DNA of 38,684 bases from a virus: IMG/VR virus record IMGVR_UViG_3300045286_000083, positions 1 through 38,684 of that record. One strand, given 5' to 3'. Positions 908-29,566 of the stretch are shown here, piece after piece. Both the position numbers and the translations under genes were made by a program. The notes beneath the pieces were generated by a model, which was not told the origin of the DNA, ran no database searches, and saw nothing but the letters and a program-made list of their open reading frames with translations. How positions within the stretch are numbered: the stretch's first letter is position 1; every line of letters starts with the position of its first letter.

Positions 908-2272
908 TCACGGGTGCGGCGGGATCGGCACGACCTGCGGGGTCACTGTGGCCTGCGGGTAGGCGGTGGCACCGGTGAGCCGGCTGCCGGTGCCGATGGC
1001 GCCGTTCTGGCAGTCCCGCATGGCGTCGATGCACGACGCGACGAACGTCGACAGGACCGTGGGATCCCAGGCGCCGAACCAGTCGGAGTGGAACGACTGG
1101 CCGTTGGCGAACACCGGCATCCCGGGCATCTGGTCGGACGAGAGGTGCCAGTTGATCGAGTTGCCGTCGTTGACGAACCAGAAGCCGAGAGAGATCTGCG
1201 GGATCTGCACCGGGTGATCGGCCGGGCAGACGCCGGTGAAGTCGTTCCCGACCGTGTACGCCATGTGCGATCGGTGGTCGGCGGAGTCGAGGTGGAGGCC
1301 GTCCCAGCAGTTCGGGAACCGGATGAACACACCGACATGCTCACCCGCCGGGCAGGCGGGGATCGACTGCTGCTTGTTCTGTGTGACCTCGCAGTACCAG
1401 TCGAAGTGTGTCGGCTGGGTCGGGTCGGCCATGTTGAAGCCGGCGATCATCTTCAGCCCGGCCGGTGGTGCGACGATGCTGGTGATGGTCTGCGCTGTCC
1501 CGAAGCCCTTGTAGTAGACGGCGACGAAGTCCGGGAGCACGACCTGGTCGGTGGCGTTGATGACCGCGGGCGCCCAGTAGGCGGTGCGGTTCAACGGGCC
1601 CCCCTGGCAGGTGCCGTCGCCGGTGGTGCGCAGCGACGCATAGGTGCTGTTCGCGTCCGCCAGCGAGTTGCCGAAGAACATGTGCAAGTGGGAGCGGCCG
1701 GGCTGGCCGGGGAACACGATCGGGTCGTCGTACGCGAGGTGCGAGTAGTTGCAGATCGTGCGGAAGTTCCCCGAGGGTTCCGCCGCGGACGACGCCGGCA
1801 CCGGGTCGCCGTTGATGAGGAACGGGGCGGTGTTGAAGTTCGACGGGATCGACGCGAGAGGTCCGGTGGCTGGCACGGTGGAGCCCGGCACGGTGGTGGT
1901 CATCACCATCGTCGTCGACGTCGTGCTCGTGGAGCTCGTCGTCGTGCTGCTGCTCGTGCTGGTCGTCGCCGATGCCGCGGCGGCAGCGACGTCGGCCTGG
2001 TCGTAGACGAGGATGCGGCCGGCGGTGAGCGTCGACGACGAGGACGCGAACCCGTTCGCCTTGGCAAGCGCGGTGGCGAGGACGGCACGCGCGCTGGCGT
2101 TGGCGTCTGGTGCGAGTTGCGCGGCGATGCCGGAGAAGGTGTCGCCCGTCTTGACCTTGTAGTACGCGACCTGCACGGTCGGCGGCGCGGCCGTCGACGA
2201 CTGTGTCGCCAGGTTGACCCCGACGACGCCAGAAAGGACGACGGCCGCGACGAGCGACACCTTCTTCAGCAT
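908..2272 (-). CDS. Secreted LysM-DUF1996 protein
   Basis: 454 aa. Residues 1-28 form a signal-like segment (MLKKVSLVAAVVLSGVVG, then Ala-rich). Residues about 35-90 read as a LysM module (YYKVKTGDTFSGIAAQL ... RILVY), which binds peptidoglycan or chitin. A Ser/Thr linker at about 101-137 leads into a DUF1996-like domain (about 168-420) with its hallmarks DDPIVFPGQPGRSHLHMFFG, FPNCWDGLHLDSADHRSHMAY and several Cys. DUF1996 is known mainly from fungi and actinobacteria, and its activity is unknown to me. The ATG at 2272 lies 7 nt after the upstream stop; the longer open frame upstream is discarded as a shadow. It follows the lysis genes, so it may be a wall-active or exported virion protein; this is inference. 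Confidence 0.8.
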   Translation of the reverse strand: MLKKVSLVAAVVLSGVVGVNLATQSSTAAPPTVQVAYYKVKTGDTFSGIAAQLAPDANASARAVLATALAKANGFASSSSTLTAGRILVYDQADVAAAAASATTSTSSSTTTSSTSTTSTTMVMTTTVPGSTVPATGPLASIPSNFNTAPFLINGDPVPASSAAEPSGNFRTICNYSHLAYDDPIVFPGQPGRSHLHMFFGNSLADANSTYASLRTTGDGTCQGGPLNRTAYWAPAVINATDQVVLPDFVAVYYKGFGTAQTITSIVAPPAGLKMIAGFNMADPTQPTHFDWYCEVTQNKQQSIPACPAGEHVGVFIRFPNCWDGLHLDSADHRSHMAYTVGNDFTGVCPADHPVQIPQISLGFWFVNDGNSINWHLSSDQMPGMPVFANGQSFHSDWFGAWDPTVLSTFVASCIDAMRDCQNGAIGTGSRLTGATAYPQATVTPQVVPIPPHP

Positions 2273-2789: not shown

Positions 2790-3002
2790 TCAGGCCGGGG
2801 GGTTGGGGGTGTTCGGGATGGTGTGGACCGCGAGCGCGACGAACGCGGCGCCGATCAGCTGCTCGACCATGCTCGAGTCGGGCAGCGGAAGCGACGGGAA
2901 CAGACGAGCGATCTGGGCGAGGATGAGCGGCGTCACGAACGCGGCGATCGACTTGCGTCGGGCGACGATCAGCTTCTCCAGCTGGATGAGGTACTTGTTC
3001 AC
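2790..3002 (-). CDS. Small membrane protein, holin candidate
   Basis: 70 aa from GTG at 3002, with GGAGGAACCC directly upstream. A basic N-terminus (LEKLIVARRKS) precedes a hydrophobic helix at about residues 17-35 and a second at about 47-62 (MVEQLIGAAFVALAVHTIPN). Size, two membrane segments and position two genes after the lysin fit a class II-like holin. The GTG overlaps the upstream stop in a GTGA, implying translational coupling. Sequence alone cannot tell holin from antiholin. Confidence 0.7.
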   Translation of the reverse strand: MNKYLIQLEKLIVARRKSIAAFVTPLILAQIARLFPSLPLPDSSMVEQLIGAAFVALAVHTIPNTPNPPA

Positions 3003-3331
3003 GGGTTCCTCCGGGGGTTGGTGAGGTCGTCGAGGCGTTCGCCCATGCGGTCGACGCGCTGGGTGAGCCCGTCCATACGGTCGTCGATGCGGTCGAAGCG
3101 CACGTTCTGTTCGTCGTGCTGGGCCTTCGCTGCGTTCATCGCGACCTGCACCGAGTCGTGGACGATGCCGCGGATCTCGCGAGCGAACCGACGTCGGAAC
3201 CATGCGGTGAGTCCGAGCACGGCGCCGGCGATGGTGACGATGCGGATGACGTCGTCCAGGTTGGCCTCGGCGGTGTTCGACAGGAACGTGAGCGCCCATG
3301 GCACGATCGGGAGGATCGTGGGCGTGATCAT
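2999..3331 (-). CDS. Membrane-anchored coiled-coil protein, lysis-associated (DUF2746-like)
   Basis: 110 aa. The ATG at 3331 lies 2 nt after the lysin stop. One likely transmembrane segment at about residues 27-45 (VIRIVTIAGAVLGLTAWF) is followed by a basic stretch (RRRFAREIR) and a C-terminal coiled coil (VRFDRIDDRMDGLTQRVDRM). Many actinophages carry a similar one-TM, coiled-coil protein beside the lysin (DUF2746 type), thought to help lysis as a holin or spanin-like factor. The assignment rests on topology and place, not on a clear motif. Confidence 0.7.
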   Translation of the reverse strand: MITPTILPIVPWALTFLSNTAEANLDDVIRIVTIAGAVLGLTAWFRRRFAREIRGIVHDSVQVAMNAAKAQHDEQNVRFDRIDDRMDGLTQRVDRMGERLDDLTNPRRNP

Positions 3332-3333
3332 CG

Positions 3334-4281
3334 TCAGGCATGGATCCACGACGCGAACGCGCCGCCACTGGTGTGCCACACCGTGTCCGCCCCGTACACC
3401 GGCTGCGGACCGACGAGGTTGAACAGCGCGAGGTCGGCGCGCTTGATCAGGAACGGGGTGCCGCTGTTCGTCGCCAGATAGCCGTCCGAGACCAGACGGT
3501 TGCGGATCGCGCTCGTCGGGATCCAGGTGAAGTTCATCCCGGACTGCACGAACTGGGCGAGGTCGTGAGGCGTCCAGTCGGTGTCGGACTCGATGATGCG
3601 AACCCAACGGTTCTCGCCAGCCATGATTGCCTCCGGGGTGATGATCTGAGGGGGAACGGGGTCGGGTGCGCTGCCGGCCCATGCGCCGAACGGCAGCAGC
3701 GTCAGGTCCGGGTCGATGGTGCCGACGCCGGCGATCGTGGTCTGCGCCTGCTGCCGCAGGTGCGCGGTCGGGTGGGTGCGCTTAAACCAGTGGGTGAAGA
3801 TCCGCAGCCACGACCAGCCGGCGGCGTTCGGTTGCACGTTCAGCGTCGACTCGGCACCGACGACGTCGAGCATGTCATAGTCGCCGTAGCAGCCGCAGCC
3901 GTACGCTCCGGCGAGCGCTCGCTTGAACGCTCGCCAGTAGGCGACACAGGCGGTCAGGTTCGACTTGACGACGTCGAGGTCGATGGCGACGACGATCGGG
4001 AAACCGTGCGGGTAGCCGAGCACTTCAGCCTGTGCCTTCGCGATCATCCCGTCGGCGGCACCGGCCTGCGCGCCGTCGAGCGGGCGGGTCGCGGACGACT
4101 CGAAGATCATCACCAGCCCGAGCCCGGCGGCGTGGATCGCTGCCACCTCGTCACGGCTGGTGTTCTTCAGGTAGCGGAACGCGACGGTGAAGCCGTGCGC
4201 GCGCAGCGCCTTCGGGTTGATCGTCGGGTTCAAGTAGTCCGCGCCGAGCTCGCTCTTGCGGGCCGTGTAGATCGTCTCCAT
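3334..4281 (-). CDS. Endolysin with DUF1906 glycoside-hydrolase-like domain
   Basis: 315 aa. Residues 1 to about 220 match the DUF1906 / Rv2525c-like TIM-barrel: ADYLNPTINPKALRAHGFTV, an FRYL strand, AAGLGLVMIFESSA and FPIVVAIDLD, whose Asp is a likely active-site residue. A proline linker (APDPVPPQ) separates a C-terminal module (about 225-315, WVRIIESDTDWTPHDL ... HTSGGAFASWIHA) that may bind the wall. The family cleaves or binds cell-wall glycan. The start at 4281 gives a complete domain. Inside the gene an ATG at 3624 has GGAGG 5 nt upstream and would make the C-terminal module alone (96 aa). It is followed immediately by two membrane-protein genes, so it heads a lysis cassette set among tail genes. 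Confidence 0.82.
   Translation of the reverse strand: METIYTARKSELGADYLNPTINPKALRAHGFTVAFRYLKNTSRDEVAAIHAAGLGLVMIFESSATRPLDGAQAGAADGMIAKAQAEVLGYPHGFPIVVAIDLDVVKSNLTACVAYWRAFKRALAGAYGCGCYGDYDMLDVVGAESTLNVQPNAAGWSWLRIFTHWFKRTHPTAHLRQQAQTTIAGVGTIDPDLTLLPFGAWAGSAPDPVPPQIITPEAIMAGENRWVRIIESDTDWTPHDLAQFVQSGMNFTWIPTSAIRNRLVSDGYLATNSGTPFLIKRADLALFNLVGPQPVYGADTVWHTSGGAFASWIHA
3624..3634 (-). promoter_or_regulatory. Possible internal ribosome binding site and start in the endolysin gene
   Basis: On the minus strand GGAGG (3634-3630), a 5-nt spacer CAATC and ATG (3624-3622) lie in the lysin frame, exactly at the linker between the catalytic and C-terminal modules. The product would be a free 96-aa C-terminal domain. 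Such internal starts are established for several Gram-positive phage endolysins that assemble as heteromers. Chance is possible, because GAG GCA is also ordinary coding sequence. Confidence 0.45.
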
Positions 4282-4286
4282 GTGCC

Positions 4287-5405
4287 TCAGCTCGTCTCGT
4301 AGAGGACCGACCACTCGTAGCGGGTGCCGGCGATCGGTGCGCCGGGTGCCGCGGCGCCGACGAGGGTGTCGGCACCGATCGGCCATGCCGACGGGTAGCG
4401 GAACGTGACGCCGGTCGATGAGAGGACGGCGCCGTCGAAGTAGCCGGCGTTGCTCGACGCGAGGGCGGAGATGCGCAGGTTGCCGAGCCCGAGCGCGGTC
4501 GAGATGCCGGTGAGTTTCGGGGTCGTCGGCAGCGCGAACGTGTAGTTGCCAGAACCGGCGGCGTTGCCGGTGTTGCCGAACGTGATCGACGCACGGGCCC
4601 ATACGAGCTTGCCGATCTGGATGTACTCGCCCTGCGTCTGGAACGAGCCGCCGGTGCCGAGCGTCGGGTTCGTCACGGACCCGACGATCCACGTGCCCGC
4701 CGACCAAGTCTGCAGGTTGCGCAGGTCGAACGCGACCTGCCATGCGGCGCCGTCCCACGCCATGCCGCGAATGGTGTCGGTTTCGCCGATCAGCTGCGTC
4801 GTGTACGGCGACGACGGGCGCAGGCTGGAGATCGTCACTCCGGTGCCGCCGAGCGCGTAGGCGCGCACGCGCAGGTCGGTGATGTTGGCGTTGACGATGC
4901 TCGACGTGGCGGCGTTGACGCGCACGCGAGCGAGCACGACACAGTTCGGGTAGCTGGTCAGCGACGGGTCGGCCGGCGACGCCGCGGGGGTGCCGGTGAT
5001 GACGGTGAGACGGGCGTCGGCGGCGGCTTCGCTGTAGTTCGAGTCACGCACCTGGGCGACGACGAGGTCGTTGCGCGGATTTGTCGGGTCGGCAGCGGCG
5101 ATCGCCAGGTTCACGGTGGCGTCGTTGAGGAAGCTGTAACAGCCCTGCAGGATCGTCGACGACCCGCCGGATCGGATGATGGCGCGCCCGGCGGCGACGT
5201 TGACCGACATGTTCGGCGTGCCGTTCTGCGCCACGACGAGGTCACCGGAACCGACGACACCGTGCGAGCCGAACACGCCGGTCGGCTGGTTCGCTGCCGA
5301 AAAGGCGGCGACCGGGGCGCCGAACATGGCGGCGATCAGGTTGCGTGCCACCTCACCGGAGTGCGACTGGCCCTGGATGGCCCACGGCAACGCTTGAACG
5401 GTCAC
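4287..5405 (-). CDS. Minor tail protein / fibre (receptor-binding candidate)
   Basis: 372 aa, GTG start with AAGGAG upstream. The N-terminal region (WAIQGQSHSGEVARNLIAAM ... GVFGSHGVVGSGDLVV ... NVAAGRAII) matches a widespread actinophage minor tail protein layout in which an attachment domain leads to a beta-rich distal part. The middle has tandem beta strands with Asp-rich turns (ADPTNPRNDLVVAQVRDSNY). The C-terminal half (WVGSVTNPTLGTGG-like; VWARASITFGNTG; YEWSVLYETS) looks like a jelly-roll tip. It lies after the tail-tip genes and before the lysin. Host-binding is inferred from position. Confidence 0.75.
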   Translation of the reverse strand: MTVQALPWAIQGQSHSGEVARNLIAAMFGAPVAAFSAANQPTGVFGSHGVVGSGDLVVAQNGTPNMSVNVAAGRAIIRSGGSSTILQGCYSFLNDATVNLAIAAADPTNPRNDLVVAQVRDSNYSEAAADARLTVITGTPAASPADPSLTSYPNCVVLARVRVNAATSSIVNANITDLRVRAYALGGTGVTISSLRPSSPYTTQLIGETDTIRGMAWDGAAWQVAFDLRNLQTWSAGTWIVGSVTNPTLGTGGSFQTQGEYIQIGKLVWARASITFGNTGNAAGSGNYTFALPTTPKLTGISTALGLGNLRISALASSNAGYFDGAVLSSTGVTFRYPSAWPIGADTLVGAAAPGAPIAGTRYEWSVLYETS

Positions 5406-5415
5406 GGGGTCTCCT

Positions 5416-5988
5416 TCAGGGGAGGTCGAGCGGAAGCACGATCAACGAGATGTCGAGGAGCTGCGGCGAAGTCGGTGCGGACGGCGCCGTGACGGTCCAG
5501 AAGGCGCCAACGCGGAACGTGTGCGGGCCCGGCGTGAGGTCCGTGCGCACCACTGCGAGACAGATCGTCGTCGGCGCGATCTTGGCGTTGTCCTGCTCGT
5601 GGAAGGCGTACATGCGCGGGTTCGTCCACGAGCCCGGGTCGCCGGTGGTATCAGCCACCCCCACGTATGCTTGCTGCGCTTTCCAGGTCGTGCCGGCGTC
5701 ATTGCCGATGTTCCACGGGGTAGCGGTGAGCATGAAGAGGGCGCGTTGGCCGGTCGTGAGCGTGAGTTGCGGGTAGCCGGTGCCGGTGTTGCTCTGATCG
5801 TCGGCCCATGTCGTGCCGACCGGGCCGAACTCGTACGTGTTGAAGGTCGTTGCCAACGCTCCGGCCGTGAGTCGAGCGTGTCGCACCCGGTTCAGTCCGA
5901 CGCGCGGCGTGTTCTCCAGCACCTTCAACCTGTTGTCGAACTCGGCGAGGATCGTCGCCAAGTTGTCCGGGAACACGGGCAGCGCCAC
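5416..5988 (-). CDS. Minor tail protein with N-terminal coil, unknown family
   Basis: 190 aa, GTG start with GGAGG about 7 nt upstream. The first 25 residues (LATILAEFDNRLKVLENTPR) form an amphipathic, probably trimerising, helix. The rest is beta-rich (TGYPQLTLTTGQRALFMLTA; HTFRVGAFWTVTAPSA; LLDISLIVLPLDLP). The short helix plus jelly-roll layout is common in small actinophage tail-tip or fibre proteins. No enzymatic motif is seen. It lies between the Gp37-like tail protein and the larger minor tail protein. Confidence 0.7.
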   Translation of the reverse strand: MALPVFPDNLATILAEFDNRLKVLENTPRVGLNRVRHARLTAGALATTFNTYEFGPVGTTWADDQSNTGTGYPQLTLTTGQRALFMLTATPWNIGNDAGTTWKAQQAYVGVADTTGDPGSWTNPRMYAFHEQDNAKIAPTTICLAVVRTDLTPGPHTFRVGAFWTVTAPSAPTSPQLLDISLIVLPLDLP

Positions 5989-6000
5989 GAGCGGCCTCCG

Positions 6001-7113
6001 TCAGTTCAACGTGAGCTTCACCAACTCCTGCCCCTCCGTGCCGGGGGTGCATTCGTAGGCGACGATGCGGGCGACGACTTCGGTGCGCGACGGGAACCGT
6101 GGATCGAACGACGACGTCGACGACCCGAAGATGAACCGGGCATAGTCGCCGAGCACCCACTGGCCGATCGCCGGATCACCACCGGCGGTCACCGTCACCT
6201 GCGGCAACGCCGCCGGCAGACCGAGCGCGTTCACCTTCGCACGACCACGCTGGTCGAGCAGCGTCGTGTTCGACGTGTCCTTCGCCGAAAGCTGATCCTC
6301 GAGCAGCGGCCACCCGAGAGCGAGCACGTCGGTGCGCACCGACGTCACGGTGCGCATGTCGGCACCGTCCCCGGCGCCGACCACGTACAAGCGGTTCACC
6401 TGTTTCGTCGCATCCTCCGGGTACGCGTACTCCAGCAGGTTGCGACCCATCTCGAACACGTGCCCCGAGTCGCCGATGTTGCGGCCGGCACGCGGGTACG
6501 AGCACACCAGCGTCTTGGCCGGCACGCCCGACGAGTAGGCGACACTGATCCCGAAGTCGAAGCCGTTCTCCTGCCCGGACAGCTCTTCGACGGCGGTGCC
6601 GATGTTCTTGTGCTCGTAGCCGTTGTAGGTGACCGACATGGTCACCCCGGACGTCTCCGAGCCGACGGTGACCCCGATGCTGCCGCCGGTCTGCGCCTGC
6701 GCGACGTTGATCAGCGTGCGAGCGATGGTGACGATGTCGGCGCCCGAGAACACCTGGTCGACGTTGTTGAGGCGGCGCCCGAAGTAGGACCACAGGCTGT
6801 TGCCGCCGATCGTGCACTTCGTGCCCGACGACGAGTAGTCGTAGCTACGGGTCCACAGGATGAACCCGTCGAGCAGCACCCCGTCACGTTCGACGTAGAC
6901 GACGGTGCGACCGCACTGGGTGGCGGCGAGCAGCGCCGCGGCTTTCGACGCGTACACGCCCGGGCTGGTCTGTACCTGCACGTTCAGCTGCAGTTCGGCG
7001 GAGAACGAGCCAGCACGGTTCAGCTGGCCGGTGAACTTCACGTCGCGCAGCGGCAGTTCTTCGAGCAGCGTGTTCGTCACCAGGTCGTAGGCGAGGTAGC
7101 GCCAGACAGCCAT
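6001..7113 (-). CDS. Tail-tip protein, Gp37-like (ReqiPepy6-type)
   Basis: 370 aa. The start is ATG 7113 with GAGGAG 6 nt upstream; the longer open frame to 7179 lacks a good site. Opening WRYLAYDLVTNTLLEELPLR, then LNRAGSFSAELQLN, VVYVERDGVLLDGFILWTRS and a closing AYECTPGTEGQELVKLTL match the Siphovirus Gp37-like tail protein family, a hub protein at the tail tip comparable to the Tal/gp27 fold. It follows the Dit-like protein directly, as usual for siphovirus baseplates. Confidence 0.8.
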   Translation of the reverse strand: MAVWRYLAYDLVTNTLLEELPLRDVKFTGQLNRAGSFSAELQLNVQVQTSPGVYASKAAALLAATQCGRTVVYVERDGVLLDGFILWTRSYDYSSSGTKCTIGGNSLWSYFGRRLNNVDQVFSGADIVTIARTLINVAQAQTGGSIGVTVGSETSGVTMSVTYNGYEHKNIGTAVEELSGQENGFDFGISVAYSSGVPAKTLVCSYPRAGRNIGDSGHVFEMGRNLLEYAYPEDATKQVNRLYVVGAGDGADMRTVTSVRTDVLALGWPLLEDQLSAKDTSNTTLLDQRGRAKVNALGLPAALPQVTVTAGGDPAIGQWVLGDYARFIFGSSTSSFDPRFPSRTEVVARIVAYECTPGTEGQELVKLTLN

Positions 7114-7123
7114 CGTCGGCTCC

Positions 7124-7963
7124 TCAGATCCAGCAGGACCGGTAGGCGAACGTGCACGTGCCGGACCCGGAGGCGGCACCGAAGGTGACGGTGCTGTTGC
7201 CGACCGGCAGGTCGAACCACACCGAGCCAGCGCCGATCCAGCTGTACCGGGAGGCGGTGCCGTTGTAGAGCACGCTGCGACCCAAGCTGTCGACGACGAG
7301 GGTGTCGCCGGCGCTGACGGTGCCGTTGAACGTCAGCTGCTGCCCGGAGCCGAGCAGGGTGAGAACCGGGGTGACGACCGGGCCGTAGATCGTGGCGACC
7401 CACGGTGCCGGGAAGTTGCCGTTGTTGGCGACGCCGATGCTGCCACCGGAGAGCGCCGAGCCGAACACGAACGGCGCGGTGGCGGCGAACGTGAGCCCGG
7501 TCGTCGCCGACGGCAGACCGGCGCTGATCGAGGTGAACGAGGCGTCGTAGATGCGCGGGTCGGTGGCGTGGAACTCGATCATCGCGTTGCCCTTGCGGAA
7601 CGAGTATTCGAGGTCGACGGGCAGCGACCGGCGGCGCGGGCGGCAGTTGAGCGCGCGCTGAGCGCGCCCGGGCAGCTGGTAGAGGAACGACGACTCGGTG
7701 GTCGCCGGGACCGTCATCGCCTTCAAGCGTTCGACGTTGGCGGCGAAGTCGCCGGCACCCGAGTCGAACACGGTGATATCAACGGTGACGGTGCGCCCGG
7801 CGAGCAGGTCGAGGCCGGGGACTTCGCCGTGCGCGTAGCCGCGTGCCGTGTCGCCGGTGCGGACGTCCGGGAGCTCTTCGAGGCCGGTGGCCTTCATGAT
7901 CTGCCAGACGGTGCCGGCGCCGATGGTGAGCCCACCGTAGGTGATCGAGTAGTCGACGGCCAC
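7124..7963 (-). CDS. Distal tail (Dit-like) protein
   Basis: 279 aa, GTG start behind GGAGGGGGTGAG. The N-terminal half resembles the siphovirus Dit/sipho-tail family: YGGLTIGAGTVWQIMKATGL, then GEVPGLDLLAGRTVTVDITV, FDSGAGDFAANVERL and RRRSLPVDLEYSFRKGNAMI. The C-terminal half is a beta-sandwich-like region ending at CTFAYRSCWI. It sits immediately after the tape measure gene, the canonical Dit position. It should form the ring joining tail tube and tip. Confidence 0.82.
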   Translation of the reverse strand: MAVDYSITYGGLTIGAGTVWQIMKATGLEELPDVRTGDTARGYAHGEVPGLDLLAGRTVTVDITVFDSGAGDFAANVERLKAMTVPATTESSFLYQLPGRAQRALNCRPRRRSLPVDLEYSFRKGNAMIEFHATDPRIYDASFTSISAGLPSATTGLTFAATAPFVFGSALSGGSIGVANNGNFPAPWVATIYGPVVTPVLTLLGSGQQLTFNGTVSAGDTLVVDSLGRSVLYNGTASRYSWIGAGSVWFDLPVGNSTVTFGAASGSGTCTFAYRSCWI

Positions 7964-7970
7964 GACGGGC

Positions 7971-9845
7971 TCACCCCCTCCAGGTCTTCATCGCCCACGC
8001 GGTCTCGGCGCTCTGCTTGCGGGCGAGCTCGTGGTGGTCGGTGATGCCGTAGAAGTTGTTGACCTGCTGCAGACCGGGCCCCTGCGGGGCGGCGTTCGAC
8101 AGTTCGTCGCGCACCACTTGGCGCATCAACTCCTCCGGGGTGACGATCTCCGGGTTCGACGCCGCACCCGGGTATTCGCCGCCGACGAACATCGTCGGAC
8201 CGGTGAGCACGCCACCCTTGGCGAGGTGCGGCAGGATGGAGATGGTGCCACCACCGATGTCGCCGACGCCGAGGATGTGGATCTTCGGCAGTTTGAACGT
8301 CGCCTTGTCGGCGAGCCAGTTCCATGCCGACTTCATACCGTCCCACAGCGACTTGATCGCGTCGGAGCCCAGGTTCCACAGCTTCGTCGCGAACCCGGAG
8401 AGGGCGTTGCCGATTTTGCCGGGGATGCCGGTGATGAACGACCAGCCGGCGTTCCAGGCGTCCTGGAGGCCGTTCCACAGGTACTGCATCGCGGACTGCG
8501 CCAGGTTGTAGAGCTTCACCGCGAGGTTCGACAGGCCGTCGAGCATCTTCTTGGGGAGGCCCTTCACGAAGTCAACCGCGGTGGTGATGTTGTTCGAGAT
8601 GACGGTGACCAGCCCGTGCCAGGCGGCGGACACGGCGGCCTTGATGACCTTCCACGCCGCCGACAGCAGGTTGGTGATCAGGTTCAGCGCCTCGGACAGG
8701 ATGCTCTTGATGGCGTCCCATACGCCACCGAAGATGTCCTTGATCCCGTTCCACACCTTGCCCCAGTCGCCGTGGATGATGCCGGTGATCACTTCGATGA
8801 TGCCGTGGATGAACTCCATGGCGGCCTGCACGATGCCCTTGATGAACGACCAGGCGTGCTCGATGACCGACATGATGTTGTCGCCGAAGTGCGACCAGAT
8901 GGCCTTGATCACCTGCACCGTGGTCTCGATGACCTGGCGGACGAAGTTGATCGCCTTCTGCACGTCGGCCTTGATCGTGTCCCAGTGGTTGCGGATCCAT
9001 CCCGCCAGCCACGACACCACTTCACCGATGGCATGGAACACGGGCTGCAGCCCCTGCATCACGCGCTTCACGACCGCGACCGCGGCCGGCATGTGCTCGG
9101 CGAGCCAGCCGGTCAGCTTGGCGACGACCGGCAGCAGATACTGCCCGATCTGCACCTTGATGCCCTCCATCGCCGCGTGCATCTGACGCTGCGCGACGGT
9201 GTTCTTGCGCATCGAATCGACGCCATCCTGACCGATGGTGACGCCGAACTTGTCGGCCTCGTCGCCGAGCTCCTTCAGCCCGGCGCTGCCCTTGTTGAGC
9301 ATCGGGATCAGGTCGGCGCCGGTGCGGCCGAACAGCTGCATGGCGAGCGCGTTCTTCTCGACACCGTCGGGCATCTTGGCGAAGACGTCCGCGGCGTTGC
9401 CGAGGATCTGCGACATCGACAGCATGTGGCCCTGGGCGTCGCGGGTCGCGATGCCGTGCTCTTCAAACGCTTTCGAGTTCGCCGCCGCACCCTTCGACAG
9501 GCGCAAGATCGCCTTGTTCAACCCGTCGGCCGAGACCCCGGACTCCTGTGCCTCGAACGCGAGCCGGCTCATCGACTGCGCGCCCTCACCGGTGAGCCGT
9601 TCCAGCTTCGACACCTGACCGGCAAGATCCGAATAGGTCTTGATGCTGTCACCGGCGAACGCCACCGCGGCGCCGCCGACGGCCGCCAGACCGCCCGCTG
9701 CCGCCAGACCAAGGCCACCGAAGTGCGACTTGCCGGCGCTCTCGGTGTCCTGCATCTCCTTGCGGGCTTCGGACATCTTCGACTTGAAGCCCTCGATGGA
9801 GGCCTTCAGTTCCGCGACGACCGGCGGCAACATCTGTCCGCTCAC
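7971..9845 (-). CDS. Tail tape measure protein
   Basis: 624 aa, GTG start behind AGGAGG. The N-terminal coil (AELKASIEGFKSKMSEARKE) and a glycine/alanine hydrophobic segment (about residues 43-65) lead into TMP-like helical sequence with FGRTGADLIPMLNKG. The middle has repeated Trp-containing helices (IKAIWSHFGDN; WSFIKGIVQAAMEF; WGKVWNGIKDIFGGVWDAI; AWNAGWSFITGIPGKI). The C-terminus may be processed. By the usual 0.15 nm per residue the tail would be about 90-95 nm. It lies between the gp10-like protein and the Dit-like gene. Confidence 0.93.
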   Translation of the reverse strand: MSGQMLPPVVAELKASIEGFKSKMSEARKEMQDTESAGKSHFGGLGLAAAGGLAAVGGAAVAFAGDSIKTYSDLAGQVSKLERLTGEGAQSMSRLAFEAQESGVSADGLNKAILRLSKGAAANSKAFEEHGIATRDAQGHMLSMSQILGNAADVFAKMPDGVEKNALAMQLFGRTGADLIPMLNKGSAGLKELGDEADKFGVTIGQDGVDSMRKNTVAQRQMHAAMEGIKVQIGQYLLPVVAKLTGWLAEHMPAAVAVVKRVMQGLQPVFHAIGEVVSWLAGWIRNHWDTIKADVQKAINFVRQVIETTVQVIKAIWSHFGDNIMSVIEHAWSFIKGIVQAAMEFIHGIIEVITGIIHGDWGKVWNGIKDIFGGVWDAIKSILSEALNLITNLLSAAWKVIKAAVSAAWHGLVTVISNNITTAVDFVKGLPKKMLDGLSNLAVKLYNLAQSAMQYLWNGLQDAWNAGWSFITGIPGKIGNALSGFATKLWNLGSDAIKSLWDGMKSAWNWLADKATFKLPKIHILGVGDIGGGTISILPHLAKGGVLTGPTMFVGGEYPGAASNPEIVTPEELMRQVVRDELSNAAPQGPGLQQVNNFYGITDHHELARKQSAETAWAMKTWRG

Positions 9846-22680: not shown

Positions 22681-23297
22681 CACGCCACGTCGCCTTTCGC
22701 TCGGCGCTGTTTCGCTTCGTTGCGTTCGGCGGCGAGGATGCGCAGGATGTGCCGTCGGTCGATGCTGCCCCCGTTGGCGACGCGGTAGTCGAGGATGCGT
22801 TTCGACGGCAGCTGGTCGTACTTGGAGCGGAACTGGGCGCACCAGTCGCACATGACGCCTTTCGGGGCCCGGGTGACGAGGTGCCCGTGGCGCAGGTGGT
22901 TGTCGCACCACACGTGGTCGTCGGGTGAGACGCGCCGGCGGACGGGCAGGACTTGGCCGTCATCGTCGAGTTCGGGCGCAGGGGTCGTCCAGCGGGCGGC
23001 GATGGATGCGGCGAGGGTGAGCTGGTGGTACGACTGCTCGAGGGCGCGCCGGTAGGTGCGCAGGTCGTGTGCGGCGCGGTCGCGGGTGATGGCGAGGCGT
23101 TCGGGTTGGGTGAGTTGCACGTCCGCGTCCGGGTCGAAACGGCGTGAGGCGGGGGTGTCGGGGTTGGCGCCGAGGACGTGAGTGGGGTAGCCGTTGCGTG
23201 CGTTCTTCATCGCCGCGACCGCTTGGATCGTGAGATCGTTCACCAGGTGGGCGTCGTGGACGATGACGGCAAGGAGACGGGCCTGCTGGGTGGTCAC
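22680..23297 (-). CDS. Hypothetical protein with zinc-binding Cys/His cluster
   Basis: 205 aa from GTG 23297, overlapping the helicase stop. A helical N-terminal half (TQQARLLAVIVHDAHLVNDL; HDLRTYRRALEQSYHQLTLA) precedes a Cys/His site (WCDNHLRHGHLVTRAPKGV, then MCDWC), a likely zinc finger, and a basic C-terminus (RRHILRILAAERNEAKQRRA). It lies right after the helicase, so DNA binding or a replication accessory role is plausible, but the family is not recognised. Confidence 0.68.
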   Translation of the reverse strand: MTTQQARLLAVIVHDAHLVNDLTIQAVAAMKNARNGYPTHVLGANPDTPASRRFDPDADVQLTQPERLAITRDRAAHDLRTYRRALEQSYHQLTLAASIAARWTTPAPELDDDGQVLPVRRRVSPDDHVWCDNHLRHGHLVTRAPKGVMCDWCAQFRSKYDQLPSKRILDYRVANGGSIDRRHILRILAAERNEAKQRRAKGDVA

Positions 23298-25162
23298 GTG
23301 GAGGGCCTTTCAGGGTTGGTGGTTCCGAACAGGAAGTCGTCGTCGAAGTCGACCGCGGGACCGCGGGACCTTGACGGCTCGTCGGGGGCAACGATTGGTG
23401 TGTCGTCGTCAACCGCGGGACCGCGGGAAACGCGGGACCGATCCCAGCCGCTGCTACCCAAAAATTCTTCTTCATTTTTCTCACCCGCGAGATGAGTAGA
23501 AGTGGTCCCGCGGTCCCGCGCTTGCAATGCATCACCGCAGGTCAGCGAGTTGACGCCGCGCGGGACCTCGCCAGGTCCCGCGGCAGGTCCCGCGGTCAGA
23601 GGGCTGTTCGCCCGTTCGGCGACGGTGAAGATGGCGACGCGACGCCGGTCGCGGGGCATCTCGACGAGGTGCAACCCGTCCGGTCCGTAGTGTCTGCCGA
23701 CCCGTTTGCGCAGCGCCATGCCGAGCCTCTTGGAGAACTGTGGGCGGTCGAATTCGCCGGCAAGCTCGTCGGGGAGGGCGTCGCGCAGCGTCATCCCGTA
23801 GTGATCGCCCATGTGCGAGATGAGCTCGGCGACGGTGACGGAGCGGTCTTGGAGGCTGCCGCTCCAGGCGGTGAGGAAGCCTTCCCATGCGCCGGCTTCG
23901 CGGTCGGCGGTGGCGTGGAAGTCGGCGAGGTTGTCGAGGAACCCGTCGATGCCGGCGTGGTGCAGGATGCCGCCGACGACACGCACCCATTGGCTGTAGC
24001 CGCCCATCGCGGGCAGCAGCTCGGCTTTGGGTTGCCCGGCGTTCCACCAGCTGCGCACGATGGTGCACAGCGCCCCGAGCAGCTGGCTGCGTTGTTCGTT
24101 GGTCCAGCGTTCGAGGTCAGGGTGGCGGAAGTTGGCGCGCAGCCACGGTTGGGCGGTGCGCGCGTCGAGACGGATGCGGTAGCAGCGTCGTGCGAGGTCG
24201 CCGCCGACGTCGATGTTGTTGCCGGTGGCTGCCCAGGTGGCACGGTTGGGGACGGTGGTGACTTCGGAACGCCCGAGGACTCGTCCTTGCCACGTGTCGG
24301 CGGTGAGGACGGCGGCGAGGGTGGCGGAGCGGATGACTCCGTCGACGTTGTCGAAAACGACGACGGTGTGCCCGGCCATCAACATCGCGGTGACCTTCTT
24401 CTCAAGTTCTTCGTCGCTGGACGGCCAGGCCATGAGGGCGGCGCCGCGGCCGGTGGTGACGATCGAGCAGGCTTTGACGAGGAGGCCTTTGCCGGTGCCG
24501 GGCTCAGGGGCGTCGATGAGCGCCATCGGAACCTGTCCGACGATGGCGCGCACGAGCGGGGTGAGCAGGAGCGCCCAGGCGTTCGCGCGGTCGGCGGTGG
24601 TGTCCCACGGGAAGTCGCAGAACAGCTCGTTGATGAGCGCGACGGCGCTCGCCAGCTGTTCGCCGGTCGGCTGGTCGGGGATCGGCGGGTACTCGGGGCC
24701 GCGGTGCCAGTGGTAGAGCTTGGTGGCCGGGTCGTAGCCGTGGCCGGTGTGGAAGGTGCCGTCGGGGCGCAGGACCGGGAGTTCGACGACGCCGGCGAGG
24801 GCGGGCATGTTCCATTTGCCGGCGGCGAGGACGCTGACGGCGACGTCGACGGGTGGCCCGGTGGCGCTGAGCCCGCCGTCCTTGAGTGCGCGCCACCAGG
24901 TGCCGGCTTGGGCGAGCAGCATGCGCACGTGTTCGGAGCGTGTGGTTTCGATGATCGGGCGAGCAAGCTCGTCTTCGCGCAGGCGTGTGAGCTGCCCGGC
25001 GCGCACGAACAGTGTCGGCGGGTCGTTGGCGTTGACGAGGGCGTCGGTGGCGTCCTGGACGACGTCGACGTGCTGGCGCCCGTTGACGATCACCTGCGGG
25101 GCGCTGGTGGGCTGCTGGTCAGTCCAGTGGTGGCCGCAGTCCAGGCATTCCAGGGCGGTCAT
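23294..25162 (-). CDS. Replicative P-loop helicase/primase-associated ATPase
   Basis: 622 aa from ATG 25162 (ATGA overlap). An N-terminal zinc-finger-like CLDCGHHW is followed by a D5-like or DUF927-like middle part and a P-loop core: Walker A APEPGTGKGL (about 218-227), Walker B VVVFDNVD (about 267-274), sensor-like ATWAATGNNID. The last ~100 residues are low-complexity and contain repeated RGPAVD and DDD motifs. It likely works with the prim-pol gene four genes upstream. The DNA encoding the tail carries nine GGTCCCGC/GCGGGACC repeats around an AT-rich patch, listed separately. Confidence 0.8.
   Translation of the reverse strand: MTALECLDCGHHWTDQQPTSAPQVIVNGRQHVDVVQDATDALVNANDPPTLFVRAGQLTRLREDELARPIIETTRSEHVRMLLAQAGTWWRALKDGGLSATGPPVDVAVSVLAAGKWNMPALAGVVELPVLRPDGTFHTGHGYDPATKLYHWHRGPEYPPIPDQPTGEQLASAVALINELFCDFPWDTTADRANAWALLLTPLVRAIVGQVPMALIDAPEPGTGKGLLVKACSIVTTGRGAALMAWPSSDEELEKKVTAMLMAGHTVVVFDNVDGVIRSATLAAVLTADTWQGRVLGRSEVTTVPNRATWAATGNNIDVGGDLARRCYRIRLDARTAQPWLRANFRHPDLERWTNEQRSQLLGALCTIVRSWWNAGQPKAELLPAMGGYSQWVRVVGGILHHAGIDGFLDNLADFHATADREAGAWEGFLTAWSGSLQDRSVTVAELISHMGDHYGMTLRDALPDELAGEFDRPQFSKRLGMALRKRVGRHYGPDGLHLVEMPRDRRRVAIFTVAERANSPLTAGPAAGPGEVPRGVNSLTCGDALQARDRGTTSTHLAGEKNEEEFLGSSGWDRSRVSRGPAVDDDTPIVAPDEPSRSRGPAVDFDDDFLFGTTNPERPST
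23355..23593. repeat. GGTCCCGC / GCGGGACC repeat cluster around an AT-rich patch: candidate replication origin
   Basis: Nine exact copies of GCGGGACC or its complement lie in 239 bp: plus orientation at 23355, 23363, 23415, 23432 and 23560, inverted at 23504, 23512, 23574 and 23586; a degenerate copy lies at 23423. Tandem pairs abut exactly at 8-bp spacing. Between the plus-oriented set and the inverted set is a T/A-rich stretch (23459-23483) unusual for this GC-rich genome. Iterated sites flanking an AT-rich segment inside a replication gene resemble the lambda ori inside gene O. Confidence 0.6.
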
Positions 25163-25908
25163 GTTGCCTCGCTGAACAGGTCGAGTGTGCTTTGCGAGAG
25201 TCGTGAGGCCGCGATCTCGCAATAGCGCTCGTCCAGTTCGATGCCGATCGCCTTGCGGCCCATCATCTTCGCGGCTACAAGAGTTGAACCGCTACCCATG
25301 AACGGGTCAAGCACTAACCCAGCTTTCGGCGCATGCCGCTCAATCATCTCCGCAAGAAGCGATACGGGCTTTTCAAACGGCAGGTGGCGCTGTGTTGGGG
25401 GCACGCGCTTGTGGCCACTAATAACCGCGCCTGTGCGCTTGCCGGCCATCTCTCGCCCTCTGCTGCGTGCGCCGTACAGGATGACTTCGTAGTCTTTCGC
25501 GTACTCGTGACGAAGGTCGCCCATGCCGCCGCCGCCCTTATTCCAGATGAGGGCATTGCGAATGGTGAAGAGGTGACAAAGATTGTCGTAGAAATCCGGC
25601 CAGCTTTCCCAGTGGCAGAACACCGCTGCGTGCATGTCCTCGTGGAAGGTGTAAGCGAGGTGGTTCAGCGCCCCGCGCACGACCCTGACCCCTTGACGGA
25701 CCCCATCGTTCTTGACGGTCTGTTTCGCTGCGGTCCAACCGCTCACGAATGCCATTCCGTAGGGGGGATCTGTCAACAGGAAATCTACGCTGTTGGGAGC
25801 TATGACATCCAGGTCGCGGCAGTCGCCGTGGTAAATCGTCACGAGCTTGTCGTGGTAGTACGGCTTCATGTCGACTCTTTCGTGTTCATGGATCCGCAGT
25901 GCGATCAT
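25159..25908 (-). CDS. DNA adenine/cytosine-N4 methyltransferase (paralogue A)
   Basis: 249 aa from ATG 25908, which overlaps the upstream stop in ATGA (an ATG at 25869 is an alternative). Motif IV DPPY is at 47-50 (VDFLLTDPPYGM) and the SAM-binding motif I is late (LVLDPFMGSGSTLVAAKMMG, about 204), i.e. a beta-class order. The opening KPYYHDKLVTIYHGDCRD and the region around the DPPY are very like the second MTase at 30003-30752. It probably modifies phage DNA against restriction. Confidence 0.88.
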   Translation of the reverse strand: MIALRIHEHERVDMKPYYHDKLVTIYHGDCRDLDVIAPNSVDFLLTDPPYGMAFVSGWTAAKQTVKNDGVRQGVRVVRGALNHLAYTFHEDMHAAVFCHWESWPDFYDNLCHLFTIRNALIWNKGGGGMGDLRHEYAKDYEVILYGARSRGREMAGKRTGAVISGHKRVPPTQRHLPFEKPVSLLAEMIERHAPKAGLVLDPFMGSGSTLVAAKMMGRKAIGIELDERYCEIAASRLSQSTLDLFSEAT

Positions 25909-26762
25909 CGGTTCAGCCGTTTCACGAGTTGGTCCCATGCTGCGCGGGCGGCTTGGGGGACGAGGCCGTTGCCGCCGAGACGGAGGGCGTCAGCCAGCCA
26001 CTCGGGAGCCCCATGAGCGACGCGACGAACTCCGGGTTCAGGTCCACCCGCGGCGACCCATCGTTCCCATCCGGCACGGTCGTCCGGTGATGGTGGGAAG
26101 CGGTAGCCCATCGGCTCACCTCGTCGCGCAGGTCGGGCGACTGCCGCGACGAATCGGCGCTGCGCGACCACATCTTCACCTGCACCGTCAGCGATGTCGC
26201 CGTGCTGCGGCCCATGCGGGCTTTCATCGCCATGTGCGCTTGGGGTGTTTTCTGGTCGTCGCGTGCTGTGGGCGTGCCCCACACACCACCAGCGGTCTCG
26301 GCGGTGAGGGGCTCCAACGGCGGCCGCAGAGAACAGACCCCATTCCGCATCGAACCCGAGGCGGGCAAGGTCATCGAGGACAGCGGGTAGTCCTGCTCGA
26401 ACAAGGCCGGGAACGTTCTCCAGGAACACGAACCGGGGTCGTACCTCACCGATGATGCGGGCAATGTCAGGCCACAACCATCGGTCGTCGTCGAGGCCGC
26501 GTCGTTGGCCGGCGATGCTGAACGGTTGGCAGGGGAAACCGGCAGTGATGAGATCCACGCGGCCGCCCCATGGGCGACCGTCGAAGGTGGTGAGGTCAGA
26601 CCAGATAGGAGCCTGATCCAGCCGCGCCTCTGCCATCCGCGCCACGAGAGTGGCCGCTGCGTAGGCATCCCGCTCAACGTGAGCCACGGTTCGGGCGACG
26701 CCGCGCAGGGCAAGCTCGAATCCTCCGTAGCCGGAGCAGAGGTGGAGGGCACGTAGTACCAC
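25905..26762 (-). CDS. DNA (cytosine-5) methyltransferase
   Basis: 285 aa from GTG 26762. Motif I LHLCSGYGGFELAL, catalytic motif IV GFPCQPFSIAGQ (C78), motif VI FVFLENVPGL, motif VIII-like APHRRDRWWCVG and a late LGGNGLVPQAARAAW (motif X) identify a C5-MTase. The variable region between VIII and IX (STRRPENTPSAHGDESPHG...) is the target-recognition part. No partner endonuclease is present, so it is an orphan MTase. Confidence 0.9.
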   Translation of the reverse strand: MVLRALHLCSGYGGFELALRGVARTVAHVERDAYAAATLVARMAEARLDQAPIWSDLTTFDGRPWGGRVDLITAGFPCQPFSIAGQRRGLDDDRWLWPDIARIIGEVRPRFVFLENVPGLVRAGLPAVLDDLARLGFDAEWGLFSAAAVGAPHRRDRWWCVGHAHSTRRPENTPSAHGDESPHGPQHGDIADGAGEDVVAQRRFVAAVARPARRGEPMGYRFPPSPDDRAGWERWVAAGGPEPGVRRVAHGAPEWLADALRLGGNGLVPQAARAAWDQLVKRLNR

Positions 26763-26763
26763 G

Positions 26764-27801
26764 TCATGACGCCTCTCTGATGTTCGTCGACCCGCAGCAC
26801 GGGCATGCGGGCACCACGGGCTCGCTGAACCGTGCCGGCCGCAGCGCACCGTTCAGTTCCTGTCGTGCCGAGCGTGCGCAGGCGCTGCGGTCGCCGCGGT
26901 GGCGTGTGGCGGCGATGTACCCGAACATCGAGTAGGACCACGAGCTGCGGTCGGCGCTGGACGCCCACGGCTGTTGCAGTTCGGGCACGGAGGTGGTGAA
27001 GACGACGAACGGGCCGTCGGGTTCGTGGAGGACGGCGCTGGTGCCGCTGCGCGGGTCTTTGCCGCTGCGTGTCCAGTGGCTGTCGTCGCCGTGCTGGTGG
27101 TGCAGGTGCCAGCCGTCGGCGTGGAGGGTGCTGTGCCAGTCGTGCTGGCGGTTGATGTGTTCGGCGATCGAGTCGTCGTTGAGCGACGCCCTGGGCGGTG
27201 GTGCCGGGTTGCCGAGCGGTGTCGGCGGTGCGGGTGGCTGCAGGGCGAGCGCGTCGATCCATGGTTGTGGCAGCCAGGCGAGTTCGTCGACACGCGGTGG
27301 GCGCCGCGACATCTCGCCGTCGGGCTGGTACCAGCGGTAACGCCCGTTGGTGTCGCGGCGTGTGGAGGGGGCGACGACGGCGAAGCGGTGGTGGCGTTGG
27401 ATGACGTCGATGCCGGCGGCGATGTTGCCGGGGAACTCGACGTTGTCAGGGATGCGGTAGAAGCTGATGCGCGACGGCTGCTGACTGCCGCGGCTGGTGC
27501 TCGACCACGTGTCGGGGAGCGTCCCGTGTTCGAGCTGGAGGGCGTGTAGTTCGTCGGCCCCGTGCTTGTCGTCGTAGTGGTCGACGTCGATGCCGATCAC
27601 CCCGACCGGCATGCGTACCCCGACGTTGGCGTGCGCGTCGGTGGCGGCCCATGAGTCGATGTCGTCGACGGTGGGATCCTTACCGTCGCGCCCGGTGAGC
27701 CCGCTGGGTGGCGGGCTTTTTTCGCCGCGTGGGAGCGGGAACGGGTGCCAGCCTGCGTCGTGGTAGGCGCGGGCGACGTCGGCAAAACCTGGGGTCGTCA
27801 T
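26764..27801 (-). CDS. Bifunctional primase/polymerase (prim-pol)-like protein
   Basis: 345 aa from ATG 27801, overlapping the MTase stop in ATGA. FADVARAYHDAGWHPFPLPRGEKSP, VGVRMPVGVIGIDVDHYDD (metal-binding D72, D74), then IDVIQRHHRFAVVAPSTR and WYQPDGE fit the prim-pol (AEP superfamily) fold. A C-terminal Cys cluster (CPCCG) probably binds zinc. It likely primes or initiates phage replication together with the helicase. Confidence 0.83.
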   Translation of the reverse strand: MTTPGFADVARAYHDAGWHPFPLPRGEKSPPPSGLTGRDGKDPTVDDIDSWAATDAHANVGVRMPVGVIGIDVDHYDDKHGADELHALQLEHGTLPDTWSSTSRGSQQPSRISFYRIPDNVEFPGNIAAGIDVIQRHHRFAVVAPSTRRDTNGRYRWYQPDGEMSRRPPRVDELAWLPQPWIDALALQPPAPPTPLGNPAPPPRASLNDDSIAEHINRQHDWHSTLHADGWHLHHQHGDDSHWTRSGKDPRSGTSAVLHEPDGPFVVFTTSVPELQQPWASSADRSSWSYSMFGYIAATRHRGDRSACARSARQELNGALRPARFSEPVVPACPCCGSTNIREAS

Positions 27802-29117
27802 GCGGTGGCCTCGTCGAACAGGGAGACCTGGCCGGGGAGTTCGGGGCGGGTGTCGAACAGGTTGCGCGCACACTCCACACGCCGCGCCGGGTAGAGGTCA
27901 CGGTTGCGGGGGTCGATGTCGATGCCGATGGCGTCGCGGCCGTGGAGGTCGGCGACGGCGAGCGTGGTGCCGGTTCCGGCGAACGGGTCGAGCACCAGCC
28001 CGGGCTGGTAGGCGTCGTGGCCGCAATCGGTCCAGTCGAGGGTGGTAGGGATCTTGGTCGCGCGGCCGTGCTTGAAGGAGGCGCCAACGCCGAGAATCGT
28101 CGAGCCCTGTGCGGCGATGGCGCGAGGCATGGCGTGTTGGCGGCCGATGTCGCCGCCGTGTGGCACGTACTCGGCCGACTCGATGCGTCGGCGGGGTTCG
28201 CCGCACTGGGCGCACACCTCGCGGGGGCACATGGACAGGATGAGGCGTTCGGCGATCTTGGCGGGCCACATCGCATAATGTGCCAACCGGCTGGGTTGGG
28301 TGGTGATCGTCCACGTGTCCGGGGTGCCGTCCCATTCGTCGAACCAACAGTCCAACGGCGGCGCACCGGCGTGCGTGGCGCGGCTGGTGGCCATCGGGTT
28401 GCCGGTCTGGCCGCTTTCGGTGTTCTTGGGTCCGTTGTCAAATGACGTTTCGCCACGCACCCACGCGTCGCCCTTGACCTTGACGGTCAGCGGTGCGTAG
28501 GCGGTGCGAACGGCGGTGAGGTCGAACCAGCGTTTCGGATGGCGGGTGGCGACAACGATCTGTGACGTGGACGGCCGGAACTTGTCGCCGAGCGCGCCGA
28601 CGCCGGGGTTGGGGCGGTGCCAGGTGATGACGTTGCGGACGAGCCACCGGCCGGCCGGTGAGGGTTGGCCGTTGAGGACGTTGCGCCCGTAGGCGAGCGA
28701 CAGGCGGTAGGCCTCGGGGACGAGTGCCAGCGACTTCGCACGCGGCCATTCGGCGGTCGGTTGGTTCTTGGCGCGCCAGTGGGCTGCGTTCGATTCGCGC
28801 ATGGTGGCGGTGCTGCCAGCGAACTGCTGCTGGCCGTCGCGAAATCCACCCGGCAGGTAGTCGCCACCGCCACCGCCACCGCCGGCGTAGGTGTCGCCGA
28901 GTTCGATGGCGATGCTGCCCCAGGGTGCAAGCACACGACCCCATTCGGCAGTCAATGCGAGCAGGGTGTCGACGAACGTGGCGGGGTCAGGTTCGCTGCC
29001 GATCTCGCGGTGCTTGTCCGGGTGGTCGGCGGGCAGGTAGGAGCGGAGCGCGACGAACGGTGGGGAGCAGGTGGCGATGATGTCGCGGGTGTCGCCGACG
29101 AGGTAGGTGACGGTCAT
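27798..29117 (-). CDS. DNA methyltransferase (N4-cytosine type likely)
   Basis: 439 aa from ATG 29117. Motif IV is ATCSPPFVALRS (SPPF near residues 18-21), the form typical of N4-cytosine MTases (TSPPY), and motif I is late (GLVLDPFAGTGTTLAVADLH, about 372-382). A glycine-rich insertion (YAGGGGGGGDYLPGG) and a Zn-like CAQCGEPRRR lie between. Order and overlap suggest co-transcription with the prim-pol gene. Confidence 0.85.
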   Translation of the reverse strand: MTVTYLVGDTRDIIATCSPPFVALRSYLPADHPDKHREIGSEPDPATFVDTLLALTAEWGRVLAPWGSIAIELGDTYAGGGGGGGDYLPGGFRDGQQQFAGSTATMRESNAAHWRAKNQPTAEWPRAKSLALVPEAYRLSLAYGRNVLNGQPSPAGRWLVRNVITWHRPNPGVGALGDKFRPSTSQIVVATRHPKRWFDLTAVRTAYAPLTVKVKGDAWVRGETSFDNGPKNTESGQTGNPMATSRATHAGAPPLDCWFDEWDGTPDTWTITTQPSRLAHYAMWPAKIAERLILSMCPREVCAQCGEPRRRIESAEYVPHGGDIGRQHAMPRAIAAQGSTILGVGASFKHGRATKIPTTLDWTDCGHDAYQPGLVLDPFAGTGTTLAVADLHGRDAIGIDIDPRNRDLYPARRVECARNLFDTRPELPGQVSLFDEATA

Positions 29118-29566
29118 GCGGTGGCCTCCCACAGTGTCCGGGCGACGCCCTCCACACCGCGATCCTCACGCGGGCGGCTCGGTGCATTCCAGCCCTTACG
29201 CGGAGGACGCTGGGCGACAACGCGCCAACCTGCCGCGCGGAGTGATGAGCCTGATTCGCCTTCCTGCGTGTAGGTGACGACGCGTCGGTAGCCCTTGGCG
29301 AACGCGGCTCGTGCGACGGCGCCATAGAGCATCGAGTTCGCGTGCGGGGTACCGTCGACGACTGAGCGGGTGACTTCCACCGTGCGACCGTCATCGAAGT
29401 GACGTGCCGATGGTCGGCCGACGATGGCGACACCGATGAGCGTTTCGCCGTCGGCCACACCGTGCGCCCACAGGTAGCCAGCAGGTCGGCGGTGGTGACG
29501 GTGCCACAGGGTGACCATTCCGCACGCGGTCTGCCAGTCGACCGGAACGAGCTGCAGGTCGCTCAT
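29114..29566 (-). CDS. XF1762-like phage protein (GNAT-like fold candidate)
   Basis: 150 aa. Motifs WHRHHRRPAGYLWAHGVADG, LIGVAIVGRPSARHFDDGRT, VTRSVVDGTPHANSMLYGAV and RRVVTYTQEGESGSSLRAAG match the XF1762 family, which is widespread in actinophages, and the layout resembles an acetyltransferase. The substrate is unknown. It is embedded among the MTases and the RusA gene, so DNA-modification or host-takeover roles are possible. Confidence 0.78.
   Translation of the reverse strand: MSDLQLVPVDWQTACGMVTLWHRHHRRPAGYLWAHGVADGETLIGVAIVGRPSARHFDDGRTVEVTRSVVDGTPHANSMLYGAVARAAFAKGYRRVVTYTQEGESGSSLRAAGWRVVAQRPPRKGWNAPSRPREDRGVEGVARTLWEATA

Follow-up and report, generated by a model that had tools for sequence, protein, structure and literature searches.

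The described DUF1996 (PF09362) proteins include the fungal Vlp1-3, which, according to the available part of the report on them, are located in the vacuole and influence the response to stress and to metal ions (PMC4738358). More generally, the accessible text of two papers connects DUF1996 proteins of fungi with the response to metal-ion and cell-wall stress (PMC4738358, PMC9148135), and a third source, available as an extract, describes CBM1, CBM6 and WSC as frequent companions of the domain and suggests a possible part in polysaccharide degradation (PMC7679414). In the literature on DUF1996 we found no activity reported for any protein that carries it. Among partly accessible records, a search for DUF1996 together with "phage" returned only a fungal transcriptome study, and one together with "bacteriophage" returned none. 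DUF1996 is a domain without a named activity, and the phage-borne, LysM-fused form described here is new within a known domain family.

The stretch of DNA analyzed here (the window) comes from IMG/VR, where it is a virus record of 38,684 bases; its G+C content is 68%. Its DUF1996 gene lies at 908-2272, exactly where the preliminary description had placed it; that description gave no strand, and the gene is on the minus strand, with its ATG at 2270-2272 and its stop codon at 908-910. It starts 7 bases past the stop of the upstream gene and encodes 454 amino acids. The order of parts that had been proposed for the protein (signal peptide, LysM, Ser/Thr-rich linker, DUF1996) is borne out by Pfam and by the predicted structure, and by inspection in the case of the signal peptide. 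The putative Sec-type signal peptide covers about residues 1-29 (2186-2272, minus strand, as are all features below) and is recognizable from a KK pair, a hydrophobic run and STAA, in a segment where the model's pLDDT is under 50. It is followed by the LysM domain at about residues 35-93 (1994-2170), where PF01476 matches about residues 38-89 with an E-value of 2.2e-5 and 24.7 bits against a cut-off of 20.9, and by the flexible linker at about residues 100-133 (1874-1975), which is evident from its composition and from pLDDT values under 50 at residues 105-113 and 115-132. The remainder, residues 140-454 (911-1855), is a folded C-terminal domain that includes the DUF1996 match at residues 183-402 (1067-1726): PF09362 aligns over all of its profile positions (1-237 of 237) with an E-value of 2.4e-38 (4.2e-41 in a repeat) and 133 bits against a curated cut-off of 27. 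(Pfam residue numbers are those of a 578-amino-acid open frame minus 124.) Beyond LysM and DUF1996 the Pfam scan of this protein was empty, as was the PHROGs scan; neither contained a known lytic domain, and the endolysin is a separate gene at 3334-4281.

In the full-length structural model, the LysM domain is ordered (about residues 35-93, pLDDT mostly 71-88), linker residues 105-132 are disordered (pLDDT under 50), and the C-terminal domain is well ordered from about residue 140, with ten-residue block means of 73-98. When modeled by itself (residues 134-454), that domain reached a pLDDT of 95.5 and a pTM of 0.93. The modeled N-terminal part has a LysM fold, as judged from its superposition on solved LysM structures (4uz2_D, Z 5.4, rmsd 1.8 Å over 48 residues; 4xcm_B, Z 5.2, rmsd 1.7 Å over 49 residues; 8zex, Z 5.5, rmsd 4.6 Å over 62 residues). 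For the full-length model, the only notable VIA-align matches were in this LysM region, and the best Foldseek match in the PDB had an E-value of 0.11 and a probability of 0.01. The domain-only model gave similarly weak results: in Foldseek against the PDB, a best E-value of 0.023 (probability 0.02, TM 0.1), with GH16-type enzymes (3juu, 4bpz, 4awd) appearing at E-values of only 0.8-1.0; in VIA-align, a best match to 8feh (Z 2.5, rmsd 7.4 Å over 133 residues); and against a viral structure library, a best E-value of 8.1e-3 with a probability of 0.03. A profile search of PDB sequences with the DUF1996 alignment returned 0 matches. All of these fold matches for the predicted DUF1996 domain are too weak to use, and the lack of a match is not in itself evidence of a new fold.

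All genes called in the window (by a purpose-written script rather than a standard gene finder, as in the other loci) lie on the minus strand, and family matches identify small and large terminase subunits, portal, head maturation protease, minor tail proteins, tape measure, Dit and a virion structural protein. The virion genes are followed by the endolysin, two short membrane-protein genes, a 159-amino-acid gene, the DUF1996 gene and a gene at the contig end. The endolysin (3334-4281) has an Rv2525c-like glycoside-hydrolase-like domain (PF08924, E 4e-20; phrog_13480 endolysin, E 3.1e-14); when used as a query against the viral contigs, it found no relative. The two short genes encode a 110-amino-acid protein with hydrophobic stretches near its N-terminus (2999-3331) and a 70-amino-acid protein with hydrophobic stretches (2790-3002) that is holin-like by inspection only, the longer frame at 2790-3368 having no family match. 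The immediate upstream neighbor (2280-2759, 159 amino acids) matched no family in our scan. The DUF1996 gene thus lies at the end of a tailed phage's late gene block, in an operon-like arrangement with the endolysin, and the late position beside lysis genes noted in the preliminary description holds for this phage, where endolysin and membrane-protein genes form one strand run with it. Because the terminase, portal, tape measure, Dit and endolysin genes share the contig and the strand, host-gene contamination was ruled out.

Other features of the window are recorded here as separate observations. The downstream gene (3-890), cut by the contig end, has no Pfam match, is preceded by AGGAGG before a GTG start, and ends in tandem repeats of the VALPPGRQNIMWAFPVRTQRPPLPAPPKR type that run off the contig. 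Three separate genes (25159-25938, 27798-29132 and 30003-30755) match DNA methyltransferase families, and two separate genes (23294-25222 and 26764-27873) have DNA polymerase/primase-type PHROG matches, one to a C-terminal and one to an N-terminal part, as if the protein were split. Relatives of the window terminase (E <= 1e-10) were found in 7 of 296 genomes of the Acidimicrobiia, the one class scanned, at 40% identity for the best; the host of the window phage may be an actinobacterium.

A location just downstream of tail and virion genes would also suit an enzyme or fiber component on the virion surface, directed against the wall or glycan coat during entry, and the LysM part of the model does match phage or phage-tail-like baseplate structures (6rbk_A, Z 4.3, rmsd 2.1 Å over 49 residues; 8kea_J, Z 4.0, rmsd 7.0 Å over 70 residues). 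We nevertheless consider this role improbable. The export signal makes it less likely: beside the putative Sec-type signal peptide of the window protein, 62 of 69 viral copies (drawn from the best 80 of 119) begin with a hydrophobic, export-like segment according to a simple hydrophobicity rule. The N-terminal modules also differ greatly among relatives, and a phage with a homologous tail module (L162) showed no DUF1996 in the 21 kb available. Of the two roles initially proposed, virion surface enzyme or secreted factor, the first is accordingly weakened by an export signal that was recognized by inspection, and the second is the reading we favor.

Two comparisons bear on how the gene travels. 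The phage contig IMGVR_UViG_3300015255_000007 (L014), which carries portal- and capsid-type genes, encodes a protein with the same signal-LysM-linker-DUF1996 order that is collinear with ours over the available parts (41% identity over 362 aligned columns), and the fusion is therefore present in another phage, contrary to an absence that had been set beforehand as a test of the proposal. The two loci otherwise differ: no other window protein matches the L014 locus, where the gene adjoins a capsid-type module and its end is cut by the contig. L014 is also the nearest row to the window in the tree by path, with a support of only 35 for the joining branch. The search for further fusions returned, besides L014, two relatives, L168 and L169, with tblastn alignments that start at query residues 128 and 158 and so leave the LysM region uncovered. 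The second comparison is with L162, a phage that has five tail-region genes in common with the window and carries an integrase; we found no DUF1996 in the 21 kb available. With the fusion in a dissimilar phage and no DUF1996 in the available part of a tail-related one, the gene behaves as mobile cargo.

Mobility of this kind fits a different function, that of a surface-altering moron. The product, secreted or lipid-anchored, would then mask or remodel the surface of the host and keep competing phages out, by superinfection exclusion or lysogenic conversion, rather than serving as a release factor. A tree with 73 viral and 87 cellular rows (built by a quick method, with several long branches) requires 14 viral/cellular changes, of which well-supported branches force at least 7. 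A lipobox-like motif was found by a simple rule in 14 of 69 viral copies (from the best 80 of 119). Of 49 records that contain a viral copy, 15 have an integrase match at E <= 0.001, and L162 has one too. One phage copy, that of MW202423.1, lies amid replication/accessory-type genes and away from annotated lysis or tail genes, which shows that late timing is not general for phage DUF1996. The accessory nature of the gene, seen in its absence from the available 21 kb of L162, points the same way. The window itself speaks against this reading: it contains no integrase match, the protein has no lipobox by inspection, and the gene follows its neighbor by 7 bases and shares a strand run with the endolysin. 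We regard the moron as possible but rather unlikely for the window protein.

Profile scans found 119 DUF1996 relatives in viral contigs and, separately, 372 in genome contigs, from which we analyzed the best 80 of each (77 loci for the genomes). The best-scoring bacterial relatives (best 80 of 372) are mostly from Sphingomonadales, with Acidimicrobiia and scattered others, and so the earlier characterization of the domain as mainly fungal and actinobacterial was too narrow. Its occurrence is sporadic: among evenly drawn genomes it was present in 6 of 79 from the family around a Sphingomonas genome and in 14 of 80 from the class around an Acidimicrobiales genome, each count including the center genome, which had been selected for its DUF1996 copy. 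Copies also occur in 26 plasmid records, from Streptomyces and others. Of the copies in the collection of phage records, only one is convincing: it lies, annotated as hypothetical, in the complete phage genome MW202423.1 (36.8 kb, from Manatee Spring). Two other candidates were rejected: AFYI01000007, a supposed Salmonella "phage" copy, is a chromosomal contig with STM4309, and OR851644.1 (L011; OR851644) is a 1.6-kb unverified, unannotated piece whose gene is close to the chromosomal STM4309 and which is probably host DNA that entered a Salmonella phage assembly. Among the viral contigs, two carry a pair of DUF1996 genes each (L006 at 2885-4333 and 6855-8786; L051 at 5952-7253 and 7257-8837).

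The regions N-terminal to DUF1996 in the viral copies are variable, with Calx-beta, LysM and carbohydrate-binding modules recognized by profile. When 80 whole proteins (70 viral, including ours, and 10 bacterial) were scanned with Pfam, all 80 had DUF1996, 10 had Calx-beta and 2 (the window protein and L014) had LysM; CBM6, CBM10, CBM35 (weak, E 0.00066), CBM4_9 (weak, E 0.0049), RTX and PKD-type modules were each matched once. Among 79 further bacterial copies, 0 had LysM or a CBM. Five loci (L006, L029, L048, L052 and L056) have a short repeated module before DUF1996, with the pattern W..V..E...F...VRYG...W..K...G.C....FG.DP.PG..K.C, that no listed family accounts for. As for genomic context, we scanned 142 of 159 listed neighbors of viral copies (a list filtered by length, distance and strand): the commonest families were phage lysozyme (7 members) and endolysin PHROGs (7), and there were also tail-fiber-like families, GDSL lipase and single instances of GH19, GH108 and amidase. 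By these counts, a recognizable lysis gene lies near a minority of viral copies. The integrase scan and a scan for Terminase_6N took in 50 of 67 viral records; 7 of these 50 matched Terminase_6N, and since only this one terminase family was scanned, the remainder may still be phages.

We aligned 171 DUF1996 domains from phages and distant bacteria, including Salmonella STM4309 at about 28% identity, and found 17 positions invariant in 171 of 171: C174, D183, H197, G201, C222, Y232, W233, P235, Y253, Y254, C294, C322, G325, C349, D380, H395 and D397. Both motifs that had been singled out beforehand are present in the protein, SHLH at residues 194-197 (1682-1693) and HRSH at residues 333-336 (1265-1276). 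In SHLH, H197 occurs in every row and H195 in 98.8%; in HRSH, H333 (97.7%) and H336 (98.2%) are near-invariant, as is H195, and all three are replaced in the divergent STM4309. D183, D380 (1133-1135), H395 and D397 (HSD, 1082-1090) had not been named, yet each is kept in 171/171 rows. The invariant cysteines would fit an exported, disulfide-bonded protein, to judge from the sequences.

This His/Asp-rich set could also, in principle, hold a metal, and the domain might then be a non-enzymatic binder of a glycan or metal ion with a protective or sensing role, as suggested for the fungal relatives, which the available text of PMC4738358 and PMC9148135 links to metal-ion and cell-wall stress responses. 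The retention of enzyme-like residues in all 171 rows, across phages and distant bacteria, argues against this, and a further binder would be partly redundant beside the separate binding modules to which the domain is fused. On balance, we think a purely binding function improbable.

The neighbors of chromosomal copies offer a different kind of evidence. Pfam matches among 132 of the 138 listed proteins include glycosyltransferases, GDP-mannose dehydratase, WecG, the sugar transferase PF02397, exosortase EpsH, DUF3485 and PEP-CTERM. On this basis, we measured distances between DUF1996 and PF02397 in 49 genomes (32 Sphingomonadales, grouped by record title with two of the names checked, and 17 others), leaving out 4 DUF1996 rows under the curated cut-off. 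Only the PF02397 matches listed were counted, so that observed and expected numbers are both slightly low. In the Sphingomonadales, at least 29 of 88 DUF1996 places, in 18 genomes, lie within 5 kb of a listed PF02397 match, compared with 0.76 expected from uniform placement when relatedness is ignored, and at least 42 of 88, in 25 of the 32 genomes, lie within 20 kb, compared with 2.8 expected on the same terms. In the 17 other genomes, the 45 DUF1996 places include 1 that lies within 5 kb of a listed PF02397 match (0.48 expected) and 2 that do so within 20 kb (1.8 expected). Linkage to this exopolysaccharide priming transferase is thus confined to Sphingomonadales among the 49 genomes. The Sphingomonadales genome loci concerned are L085-L156; many of the DUF1996-PF02397 spacings differ (0.7 to 5 kb), which implies more than one inherited arrangement.

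Taken together, these observations lead us to favor, tentatively, an accessory cargo of a tailed phage that is exported, tethered to the wall and active on envelope polysaccharide, an account to which we attach a little less than even confidence. The protein would be exported by the host Sec system and held on the cell wall by LysM through the flexible linker, as its domains suggest, and DUF1996 would act on a host envelope or extracellular polysaccharide, most likely by catalysis through the invariant Asp/His set (D183, H197, D380, H395, D397) together with aromatic residues. Presumably made with the late genes, it may loosen or alter surface polysaccharide around the dying or infected cell, and either progeny would leave more easily or the surface met by other phages would change. 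We count in favor of this account the domains, the late strand run with the endolysin, the hydrophobic N-termini, the companion modules, the PF02397 linkage, the invariant residues, the endolysin families near viral copies and the extract of PMC7679414. The wall or glycan-active role first proposed survives as the best current guess, given the Sphingomonadales linkage, the carbohydrate-binding companions and the CBM/WSC companions in fungi (as excerpted from PMC7679414), with the activity itself a supposition. Against it, the linkage is confined to Sphingomonadales while the host may be an actinobacterium, bacterial copies rarely have binding modules, the MW202423.1 copy lies outside lysis and tail genes, and the vacuolar and stress role of Vlp1-3, in the available part of PMC4738358, does not point to polysaccharide cleavage.

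A broader proposal, which we consider doubtful although possible, is that DUF1996 represents an uncharacterized class of enzymes that act on polysaccharides outside the cell, perhaps with a fold not represented among solved structures. Phages of several bacterial groups would have acquired such an enzyme repeatedly, either as a late or as an accessory factor, exported and tethered to the surface; on this view, the fusion to LysM would yield a polysaccharide-cleaving factor anchored to the wall and unlike the known endolysins and tail-spike depolymerases. If the window protein does cleave host polysaccharide, it would represent a new kind of phage envelope factor, and if it masks the surface, it would belong to a widespread moron family. 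In either case, a compact and well-predicted phage version, its conserved residues and the link to exopolysaccharide loci narrow "function unknown" to a few assays.

Besides L014, the window protein can be placed among three sets of known relatives. STM4309 of Salmonella is a distant homolog that keeps the invariant D/H/Y/W/C set; it differs in lacking H195, H333 and H336 and in lying on a chromosomal genomic island rather than in a phage late region. The chromosomal proteins of Sphingomonadales and Acidimicrobiia have the same domain, at about 36-45% identity to ours, and many have Ser/Thr/Pro-rich linkers, but none of the 79 scanned has LysM or a CBM, and those of Sphingomonadales often stand beside exopolysaccharide genes. 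With the fungal Vlp1-3 and Wsc1I of Beauveria bassiana (PF09362), the window protein has in common the signature D-x4-P-x6-H-x-H-x3-G ... YW-x-P ... CP ... H-x-D-x3-(A/G)W, as given in the accessible text of PMC4738358: its elements DxxxxP, HxH, YWxP, CP and HxDxxxGW are found at D183 and P188, H195/H197, Y232-W233-P235, C349-P350 and H395/D397/W402, the HSD motif corresponding to HxD and an A replacing the G before W402. By the same text, residue 228 is Asn here and Asp in the fungal formula, and the stretch from YWxP to CP is shorter (113 residues, versus 123-203 in the fungal proteins). Unlike those proteins, the window protein is phage-borne, predicted to be exported and tethered by LysM.
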